The notes under the pieces are model-generated. The model saw only the letters and a program-made list of their open reading frames with translations. It had not been told where the DNA came from and did not search any database. A DNA stretch of 7,178 nucleotides. It comes from DASVDK01 sp036381125 [NCBI: Thermodesulfobacteriota bacterium]. Its GTDB lineage: Bacteria > DASVDK01. The stretch lies in assembly GCA_036381125.1 (NCBI GenBank), contig DASVDK010000344.1:1-7178 (forward strand). Direction: 5' to 3'. The translations under genes and the position numbers were made by a program. Positions 3,909-7,178 of this stretch are shown one piece after another (positions within the stretch are counted from its first letter, which is position 1; every line of letters starts with the position of its first letter).

Positions 3909-3940
3909 GTCGCCCCCGGCGGCGGGGCGGCTCCCGGCGC

Positions 3941-3971
3941 CTCGCCGGCCGGCGCGTGCCCGGCCGGCGAG
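3941..3971 (+). terminator. Strong GC hairpin after the chemoreceptor (possible terminator, no U tract)
   Basis: CTCGCCGGCCGG (3941-3952) pairs perfectly with CCGGCCGGCGAG (3960-3971) around a 7-base loop CGCGTGC. The 12-bp all-but-one G:C stem lies 32 bases past the chemoreceptor stop. No T run follows, so it may be a Rho-independent-like terminator of a high-GC genome, an mRNA-stabilising structure, or a DNA-level palindrome. The inverted repeat is seen directly; its role is inferred. Confidence 0.45.
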
Positions 3972-3978
3972 CCGGCGG

Positions 3979-3984
3979 TACACT
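3979..3984 (+). promoter_or_regulatory. Candidate -10 box (TACACT) for the MFS gene
   Basis: TACACT matches TATAAT at 4 of 6 positions, including the key TA and final T. It is flanked by nearly pure G/C sequence and sits just after the hairpin. No clear -35 lies 16-18 bases upstream. A start of transcription near 3991 would put the GTG at 3992 at or near the mRNA 5' end. Confidence 0.35.
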
Positions 3985-3991
3985 GGCCGCC

Positions 3992-4015
3992 GTGACCGCG
4001 CCGGCGACACCGTGA
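3992..4015 (+). CDS. Possible 7-codon leader peptide overlapping the MFS start
   Basis: GTG 3992 opens a 7-codon frame (M-T-A-P-A-T-P) that stops at TGA 4013-4015. This stop overlaps the GTG start of the permease in the sequence GTGA. The frame begins 7 bases after the TACACT box, the spacing expected for a leaderless start. The permease has no Shine-Dalgarno sequence of its own, so coupling through this frame would explain its initiation. The arrangement is visible; translation of the leader is speculative. Confidence 0.2.
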   Translation: MTAPATP

Positions 4016-5340: not shown

Positions 5341-5367
5341 AAAATGGAAAGACCTGACCCCATGGAA
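5341..5367. repeat. AT-richer relic resembling the REP-associated transposase (RAYT) end sequence
   Basis: GGAAAGACCTGACCCC (5346-5361) is preceded by AAAAT in otherwise almost pure G/C DNA. GACCTGACCCC (reverse GGGGTCAGGTC) is, from general knowledge, a recurrent sequence around IS200-like REP-associated tyrosine transposases in many bacteria. No transposase is present here, so this would be a solo remnant or a non-autonomous copy. The core AGACCTGACCCC is flanked by a direct 6-base repeat ATGGAA (5344-5349 and 5362-5367). It ends right at the stop codon of the minus-strand gene. Confidence 0.45.
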
Positions 5368-5758: not shown

Positions 5759-6679
5759 TCAGCCCGGCAGCGTGACCGTGCCGTCGATGACCGGCTCCAC
5801 GCGGCCGGCGACTCGCACCGTCATCGCCTCCGGCGTGTGCCCCTCGACCGACACGTCGAGCCGCGACGGCCGCCGCATCTCCACCCCCTGGCGGACGGCG
5901 AGCCTGCCGCCGGGGAGCCGTCCGGCCGCAGCAAGGTAGGCGCCGAGACACCCGGCGGCCGAACCGGTCGCCGGGTCCTCGACCATGCCGAGCGACGGGG
6001 CGAAGAAGCGGGCGCGGGCCTCGCCGCCGCCGGTCAGCGCGAAGGCGAAGACCCCGGCCGCGCCCCAGCGGTCGGCGAGCCGGCGGACCGCGGCGAGGTC
6101 GGGCGCCAGCGCGGCCACCGCCTCGGCGGACGCAAGCGGCACGAGGAGCTGATCGACCCCGGTCGAGACGAGGCGCGGCGGGAGGGCGGCGAGGCCGACG
6201 CCGCCGGCCGGCCGGCCGAGCGCGCTCGCCAGCTCGTCGGCGTCGCGCCCTTCGATCGTGCGCCCGAGGCGGGGACGCCCCTGCGTCATGACGACCCGCG
6301 CGACCCGCAGGCCGCCGGCGCCGTCCGGCTCGGTCTCGAGCGTCACCGGCAGGACGCCGGCCTGGACCTCGTGGCGGATCTCGGTGCGCGGCGCGACGAG
6401 CGGGAACGCCCCCTCGCGAGCCATGACCCAGGGGGTGCCGACCAGCGGGTGGCCTGCGAAGGGGAGCTCGCGGCCCGGCGTGAAGATGCGGACGCGGTAG
6501 GCGGCCGCCGGGCTCGACGGGGGGAGGACGAAGGTGGTCTCCGAGAGGTTCAGCTCGAGCGCCAGCGCCTGCATCTCGTCGTCCGTGAGCCCGCGGGCGT
6601 CCGGGAAGACGCCGAGGGGGTTCCCCTCGAGCGGCGCCTCGGCGAACACGTCAACCTGGTGGAAGCGCAACCGACGCAT
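5759..6679 (-). CDS. PhzF-family isomerase-like protein
   Basis: A 306-residue cytoplasmic member of the PhzF/DapF-like superfamily. It has the full set of family signatures: FHQVDVFAEAPLEGNPLGVF at the N-terminus (6-25), NLSETTFV with E47 (the general acid/base glutamate, E45 in PhzF), ELPFAGHP with H77 (H74 in PhzF), and EDPATGSAAG with D235 and S240 (D208 and S213 in PhzF; numbering from memory). PhzF itself isomerises trans-2,3-dihydro-3-hydroxyanthranilate in phenazine synthesis. No other phenazine genes are here, so the real substrate is unknown, as for most family members. ATG 6679 is preferred to an upstream TTG at 6718: it gives the canonical N-terminus and lies 10 bases from a -10-like box. 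GAGAGG lies too close (2 bases) to act as a normal Shine-Dalgarno element. First gene of a two-gene operon. Confidence 0.94.
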   Translation of the reverse strand: MRRLRFHQVDVFAEAPLEGNPLGVFPDARGLTDDEMQALALELNLSETTFVLPPSSPAAAYRVRIFTPGRELPFAGHPLVGTPWVMAREGAFPLVAPRTEIRHEVQAGVLPVTLETEPDGAGGLRVARVVMTQGRPRLGRTIEGRDADELASALGRPAGGVGLAALPPRLVSTGVDQLLVPLASAEAVAALAPDLAAVRRLADRWGAAGVFAFALTGGGEARARFFAPSLGMVEDPATGSAAGCLGAYLAAAGRLPGGRLAVRQGVEMRRPSRLDVSVEGHTPEAMTVRVAGRVEPVIDGTVTLPG

Positions 6680-6689
6680 GGCCTCTCGA

Positions 6690-6718
6690 CTTCTACCCGA
6701 TCGTCGCGTCTTTGGCAA
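6690..6718 (-). promoter_or_regulatory. Candidate phzF promoter, TTGCCA-N17-TAGAAG
   Basis: Read on the minus strand, TTGCCA (6718-6713) is 5 of 6 to TTGACA, and TAGAAG (6695-6690) is 4 of 6 to TATAAT, with an ideal 17-base spacer. The -10 ends 10 bases before ATG 6679, so transcription would begin about 4 bases before the start codon, predicting a nearly leaderless mRNA. It shares its -35 palindrome with the opposing folB promoter. Confidence 0.5.
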
Positions 6719-6740
6719 ATCGCGCTCCGACCGCTACCAT
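6712..6740 (+). promoter_or_regulatory. Candidate folB promoter, TTGGCA-N17-TACCAT
   Basis: TTGGCA (6712-6717) is 5 of 6 to TTGACA, and TACCAT (6735-6740) is 4 of 6 to TATAAT, with an ideal 17-base spacer. The -10 ends 11 bases before ATG 6752, predicting a 5' leader of about 5 bases or none. No Shine-Dalgarno precedes the ATG, which agrees with leaderless initiation. Confidence 0.55.
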
Positions 6741-6751
6741 GAACGCCGAAC

Positions 6752-7178
6752 ATGGACCGCGTGATCGTGAAGGGGCTGGTGGTCGAGGCGTCCGTCGGCG
6801 TGTCCGATGCCGAGCGAGCGGCGCCGCAGCGATGCCGGGTGGACGTCGAGCTCACGGCGGACCTCGAGGCGGCGGGCACGTCGGACGACCTCGCGAAGAC
6901 CATCCACTACGGTCACGTGATCGAGACGCTGCGCGAGGTGGCCGCCACGCAGACGACGCGCCTCGTCGAGGCGCTGGCCGGCCGCATGGTCGACGCCCTC
7001 TTCGAGCGCTTCGGACCCGAGCGGATCACGCAGCCGCCGCAGCCGGGCCGCGCGATCGCCGTCAAGCTGCGACTCGTCAAGCTCGACCCGCCGATCGACG
7101 CCCCCGTCGACGAGGTCGGCGTCGAGCTGGAGCGGACCGCCGCCCCGCGGCGCCCCGCCGGCGCCGGCCCCCTCGGGT
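6752..7178 (+). CDS. folB: Dihydroneopterin aldolase FolB (3' end outside window)
   Basis: An open frame of 142 codons from ATG 6752 to the window edge. FolB converts 7,8-dihydroneopterin to 6-hydroxymethyl-7,8-dihydropterin in folate synthesis, as a cytoplasmic oligomer. Family marks in order: DRVIVKGLVVEASVGVSDAER (2-22) with E21 at the catalytic glutamate position; APQRCRVDVEL (24-34); SDDLAKTIHYGHV (44-56) with Y53; RLVEALAGR (70-78) with E73 for pterin binding; LRLVKLDPPI (106-115) with K110 at the catalytic lysine position; and the usual end VGVELER. A Pro/Gln-rich stretch (ITQPPQPGRAIA, 92-103) looks like an insertion of about 10 residues before the last strand. The tail TAAPRRPAGAGPLG runs past the normal end of about 120 residues and could be a linker to another domain such as FolK, or just an extension. 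Confidence 0.9.
   Translation, partial: MDRVIVKGLVVEASVGVSDAERAAPQRCRVDVELTADLEAAGTSDDLAKTIHYGHVIETLREVAATQTTRLVEALAGRMVDALFERFGPERITQPPQPGRAIAVKLRLVKLDPPIDAPVDEVGVELERTAAPRRPAGAGPLG

Follow-up and report, generated by a model that had tools for sequence, protein, structure and literature searches.

Divergent promoters that stand back to back and overlap in their upstream elements form a known class. Prokaryotic bidirectional promoters, described by Warman, Grainger and colleagues, have overlapping -10 elements and start sites that lie 7 to 25 bp apart, most often 18 bp, according to the portions of two reports considered here (PMC10268837, PMC12825309). As to promoters lying directly against open reading frames, leaderless genes with a TANNNT box are known from several phyla, as described in part of one survey (PMC3160421), and a passage on Deinococcus presents the -10 motif adjoining an ORF as an experimentally established promoter for leaderless mRNA, with expression boosted by a -35 element put 17 bases upstream of that ORF-adjacent -10 (PMC12340547). 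A narrowly phrased search of open-licence PMC full text for an overlapping, shared or common -35 of divergent promoters found no paper, which is weak evidence on novelty.

We examined the divergent phzF-folB gene pair in a stretch of 7178 bases with 75% G+C, hereafter the window, and collected its features in Table 1. The gap between the two genes (6680-6751) comprises 72 bases with 61% G+C, and G+C as low as this is found in only 1.4% of the window's 72-base stretches. The near-palindromic core of the gap is short, with arms TTTG and CAAA around a single central G and with the next bases outward unpaired, and both TTGNCAA and TTTGNCAAA occur once each in the window. The -35 hexamers read from the core in the two directions overlap at five of six positions (6713-6717). 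An earlier note on this DNA had described the gap as a pair of mirror-image divergent promoters; upon rereading of the gap on both strands all of its coordinates, hexamers and spacings proved exact, and the symmetry it proposed holds for the -35 core with its equal 17-base spacers. It does not extend to the -10 boxes, which are not mirror images of each other, as TACCAT has a final T and TAGAAG has none at this sixth position.

Table 1. Features of the phzF-folB gap and its flanking genes (window positions)
Feature	Positions	Strand	Evidence or remark
phzF-like gene, PhzC-PhzF family, 306 aa plus stop	5759-6679	-	Pfam PF02567, E 1.3e-63
Stretch from -10 to phzF ATG (6679), 10 bases	6680-6689	-	GAGG 2 bases before ATG
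Leftward -10-like box TAGAAG, 4/6, without final T	6690-6695	-	17 bases from TTGCCA
Near-palindromic core holding the putative shared -35, TTTGGCAAA	6711-6719	.	read directly, both strands
Rightward -35 TTGGCA, 5/6	6712-6717	+	sequence, promoter scan, matrix
Leftward -35 TTGCCA, 5/6	6713-6718	-	sequence, matrix
Rightward -10 TACCAT, TANNNT type	6735-6740	+	17 bases from TTGGCA
Stretch from -10 to folB ATG (6752), 11 bases	6741-6751	+	no Shine-Dalgarno-like word
folB-like gene, dihydroneopterin aldolase, runs off window end	6752-7178	+	Pfam PF02152, E 3.3e-27

We think it reasonably likely that the gap holds two back-to-back sigma-70-type promoters that share one -35 and give rise to mRNAs with very short leaders. 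The shared -35 arrangement itself is real and probably functional, the putative folB-side promoter being well supported and the phzF-side one weaker, with its TAGAAG box devoid of the final T. The encoded proteins begin with MDRVIVKGL (FolB) and MRRLRFHQVDVF (PhzF), and we take both ATGs to be plausible, judging by the known family starts of FolB and PhzF.

Against the sigma-70 consensus (at least 4/6 per hexamer and at least 9/12 in total, spacers of 15-19 bases, both strands), exactly two sites in the window pass the 9/12 threshold, the rightward and the leftward gap promoters. When scored with an E. coli matrix, applied here to DNA of a high-GC organism, the same two sites rank first and second among 14,294 positions, with scores of 9.3 and 8.6 relative to 6.3 for the third. 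Judged on sequence, the gap thus features back-to-back divergent promoters with overlapping -35 hexamers, of which the rightward one (TTGGCA-17-TACCAT, 9/12) conforms to the sigma-70 rule of a 16-18-base spacer with A2 and T6 in the -10, whereas the leftward one (TTGCCA-17-TAGAAG, 9/12) fails the strict -10 rule for want of T6. A promoter scan demanding both A2 and T6 accordingly reports the rightward site alone, as would be expected if only the folB promoter were real, the short palindrome had produced the leftward match incidentally, and transcription of phzF came from elsewhere or were weak. We regard this alternative as possible, though rather unlikely. The final T that TAGAAG lacks is highly conserved, and the mirrored -35 comes cheaply, as it needs just one further A once TTGGCA is present. 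What chance seldom supplies is the leftward TA-starting -10: with the core and the right promoter held fixed, a TA-starting box with at least 4/6 matches at a spacing of 16-18 bases arose in just 0.8% of 50,000 left-side shuffles, and a box of any form with at least 4/6 matches in 2.0% of them. Further arguments against a folB promoter acting alone are the second rank that the leftward site still attains by matrix, as well as the scarcity of substitutes for it, the only other leftward gap site among the 25 top-ranked being a shifted reading of the same TTGCCA/TAGAAG site (2.8 relative to 8.6).

The position of a palindrome at the centre of a divergent gap is also what one would look for in an operator, and the shared cores that recur in other genomes adjoin Rrf2, HxlR or MarR regulator genes. 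We nevertheless consider it improbable that TTTGGCAAA is primarily a site where a dimeric regulator would act on phzF, folB or both, with promoters lying elsewhere or overlapping it: its arms measure only 4 bases, it occurs a single time in the window, no DNA-binding regulator is found among the Pfam-matched window proteins (two of the seven proteins were without a match), and no operator is needed to account for two -10 boxes spaced at exactly 17 bases.

AT-rich hexamers are rare in the window because of its 75% G+C. Dinucleotide shuffles of the whole window (n = 300) gave a mean of 0.18 sites, with at least two sites in 6/300 and a mirrored pair in 0/300, and dinucleotide shuffles of the gap itself (n = 20,000, spacers of 16-18 bases) gave 182 sequences with a rightward site, 96 with a leftward one, 4 with both and 1 in which the two shared their -35, these shuffle figures all concerning one spot that the earlier note had picked among many. 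The shared -35 pair exceeds chance. It is very improbable that the AT-richer gap of a GC-rich genome simply yielded functionless E. coli-like hexamers, a view favoured by the unusual composition of the gap and by the choice of this spot among many, but opposed by the single shared pair among the composition-preserving gap shuffles. The proposal of divergent promoters with a common -35 is well supported by the sequence statistics, and held back by the leftward -10 without its conserved final T.

According to the shared -35 reading, the 7-base core TTGGCAA would serve as the -35 of both promoters, with a 17-base spacer on each side. Applying the usual 7-base step, with the last -10 base taken as -7, RNA polymerase bound in one orientation would produce folB mRNA from about 6747-6749, with purines present at 6748-6750, and polymerase bound in the opposite orientation would produce phzF mRNA from about 6683. 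The predicted, unmapped start sites lie about 64 bp apart, and the resulting leaders of some 3-5 bases on both sides would lead to a leaderless or near-leaderless translation start. The nearly exact overlap of the -35 hexamers, together with very short predicted leaders, would explain why the whole gap takes up only 72 bases.

For folB, where a TANNNT box stands 11 bases before the ATG and none of four Shine-Dalgarno-like words is found in the preceding 25 bases, these features are compatible with the leaderless starts that had been proposed for both genes; predicted leaders of 3-5 bases are nevertheless not strictly leaderless. Upstream of phzF there is no TANNNT, and the GAGG 2 bases before the ATG is too close for an ordinary Shine-Dalgarno sequence, yet gives reason against claiming a leaderless start. 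Given a -10-like box without the final T and a GAGG directly before the ATG, phzF could use another start. Unlike folB, dctP at 745 carries a clear Shine-Dalgarno-like GGGAGGAG. The window contains five TANNNT boxes in total (3979, 6735 and 6908 on the forward strand, 5938 and 4570 on the reverse strand), and two of the three on the forward strand adjoin gene starts, one lying 27 bases ahead of mfs and the other 11 bases ahead of folB. This pattern fits an organism that would have both Shine-Dalgarno-led and near-leaderless genes.

The box at 3979-3984, TACACT, belongs to the promoter-like site that ranks fourth in the window (3956, with a 17-base spacer), and 7 bases separate the end of this box from a GTG at 3992. 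A frame of 7 codons begins with that GTG, and its TGA (4013-4015) shares bases with the GTG at 4012 where the MFS gene starts. The 3992 frame may be a leaderless mini-ORF upstream of the MFS transporter gene and coupled to it. A strong GC hairpin follows the chemotaxis gene (3934-3978, -38.1 kcal/mol, z -2.4, no T run); it lies directly before TACACT, overlaps the -35 region that goes with this box, and is possibly a terminator.

Among 38 loci with phzF homologues, with the start taken as the nearest in-frame ATG or GTG, a TANNNT box lies 4-13 bases before the start in 14 (13 distinct) and is absent in 24. In one Chloroflexota class, each of the six distinct phzF loci (L033, L034, L040, L041, L042 and L043) features TAGACT or TACACT 6-9 bases ahead of the start codon, which suggests that phzF genes may be leaderless in that class.

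As five positions are common to both -35 hexamers, the two polymerase orientations would be mutually exclusive, and polymerase bound one way would have to occlude the other. The earlier note had concluded from such one-way binding, which we likewise infer, that the two genes would compete. In E. coli, however, the basal activity of five out of five tested bidirectional promoters was too low for RNA polymerase competition, which appeared on activation of one direction or, with a single exception among the five, on strengthening it, as reported in the portion of the study considered here (PMC12825309). The E. coli promoters share a -10, whereas the present locus shares a -35, so that the result would carry over by analogy. 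With E. coli basal activity too low for competition, phzF and folB could compete only if one direction is strong, and exclusion would matter only where one direction is strongly used. Both genes at the locus are ordinary metabolic ones, and any regulatory use of their mutual exclusion is hypothetical.

To see the layout in other genomes, we searched 198 Actinomycetota genomes with the pattern TAN16TTGNCAAN16TANNNT and with a control in which the left spacing was broken (N12). There is no genome-wide excess of the layout, with 187 matches in 58/198 genomes relative to 192 matches in 67/198 for the broken-spacing control, which counts against a widespread class. Both patterns exceed their read-backwards controls (82 and 96, respectively), as expected given that the right half is by itself a frequent form of promoter. 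Among the matches listed, all 30 sites with TANNNT on both sides were read, and 7 of them lie between divergent open frames whose ATG or GTG is no more than 50 bases away in each direction, relative to 2 of 20 broken-spacing control sites, which were hand-picked from the listed control matches rather than random; this is not a clear difference. The seven sites reduce to four gene pairs, as three and two of them are orthologous, namely rhomboid/LemA in three genomes and Rrf2/alpha-beta hydrolase in two. We take the hydrolase beside Rrf2 to resemble homoserine O-acetyltransferase. In the alignments, invariant columns are concentrated in the element, at 17/19 relative to 15/32 in the spacer for rhomboid/LemA (three genomes) and at 19/19 relative to 22/32 for Rrf2/hydrolase (two genomes). 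Divergent promoters with a shared -35 thus seem to exist as conserved, though rare, elements, and the Rrf2 core could also be a regulator site. Another locus (L130, 997-1047) has a shared -35 from which the genes of a MarR regulator and a YceI-family protein run in opposite directions, with the MarR ATG 6 bases beyond its -10, close to the phzF-folB layout.

It is doubtful that mirror promoters in which a single palindromic TTGNCAA would act as -35 both ways constitute a compact class apart from the bidirectional promoters with a shared -10. If they did, divergent gaps of about 70 bases would be accounted for in leaderless-rich bacteria, with polymerase orientation acting as a switch between two genes, and the conserved rhomboid/LemA and Rrf2/hydrolase cases would fall in that class.

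The PhzF scan of genome contigs returned 18 loci at 29-42% identity; the best-scoring PhzF match has 51% identity over nearly the whole length and comes from the class of genome G930, and pieces of about 60-70 residues reach 54%. At E 1e-3, PhzF is matched in 143/247 Acidobacteriota genomes; at E 1e-50, matches are found in 0/299 Pseudomonadota, 2/198 Actinomycetota, 7/201 Chloroflexota, 1/29 in the class of G824 and 6/177 in the class of G930, where FolB is matched in 116/177 genomes at E 1e-8 with 31-44% identity. A window fragment without a Pfam match, which we take to be the C-terminus of an NAD synthetase, is matched at E 1e-30 in 8/101 Chloroflexota (two at 71%) and in 16/150 Pseudomonadota (up to 62%). 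None of 160 loci, most of them covering about 1.5 kb on each side, contains both a PhzF match (41 loci) and a FolB match (31 loci), a count that comes with most matched genomes having given no locus for gene-order comparison, and the phzF-folB order may occur elsewhere. Plasmid matches to DctP (1137 records) and FolB (14 records) are all below 60% identity, viral contigs contain no relative of FolB, PhzF or DctP and no exact match to two patterns, and the Rfam search gave no matches. Elsewhere in the window, AAAATGGAAAGACCTGACCCCATGG (5341-5365) is AT-richer than its surroundings and resembles a repeat that many bacteria carry close to REP-type transposases; viral contigs contain no exact match to it over 22 bases.

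Overall, the locus is a further example of an already recognised arrangement. With back-to-back divergent promoters it has in common two outward promoters in a divergent gap with shared upstream DNA, and it differs from them in the nearly exact overlap on the -35 and in its very short predicted leaders. The Actinomycetota rhomboid/LemA and Rrf2/alpha-beta hydrolase sites likewise lie in a divergent gap and have two -10 boxes at 17-base spacers from a TTGNCAA core; they involve other genes, AT-richer DNA and ordinary leaders, with the ATG 16-40 bases beyond the -10. The folB side resembles the TANNNT leaderless genes of Actinobacteria, Deinococcus-Thermus and others, as partly described in PMC3160421 and PMC12340547, in having a TANNNT box directly before a start without a Shine-Dalgarno sequence in high-GC DNA, whereas the distance of 10-11 bases between box and ATG is slightly long at this locus and the phzF box is not a TANNNT. 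The symmetry, with one site where two mutually exclusive orientations of RNA polymerase would yield divergent RNAs, recalls the bidirectional promoters of Warman, Grainger and colleagues. The locus lies outside the definition given in the portion of PMC10268837 considered here, as it is the -35 and not the -10 that overlaps, and the predicted starts are about 64 bp apart. It offers a clean, minimal natural case for asking if mutual exclusion of two genes can follow from a shared -35 as opposed to a shared -10, and bears as well on how short leaders shape divergent gaps.
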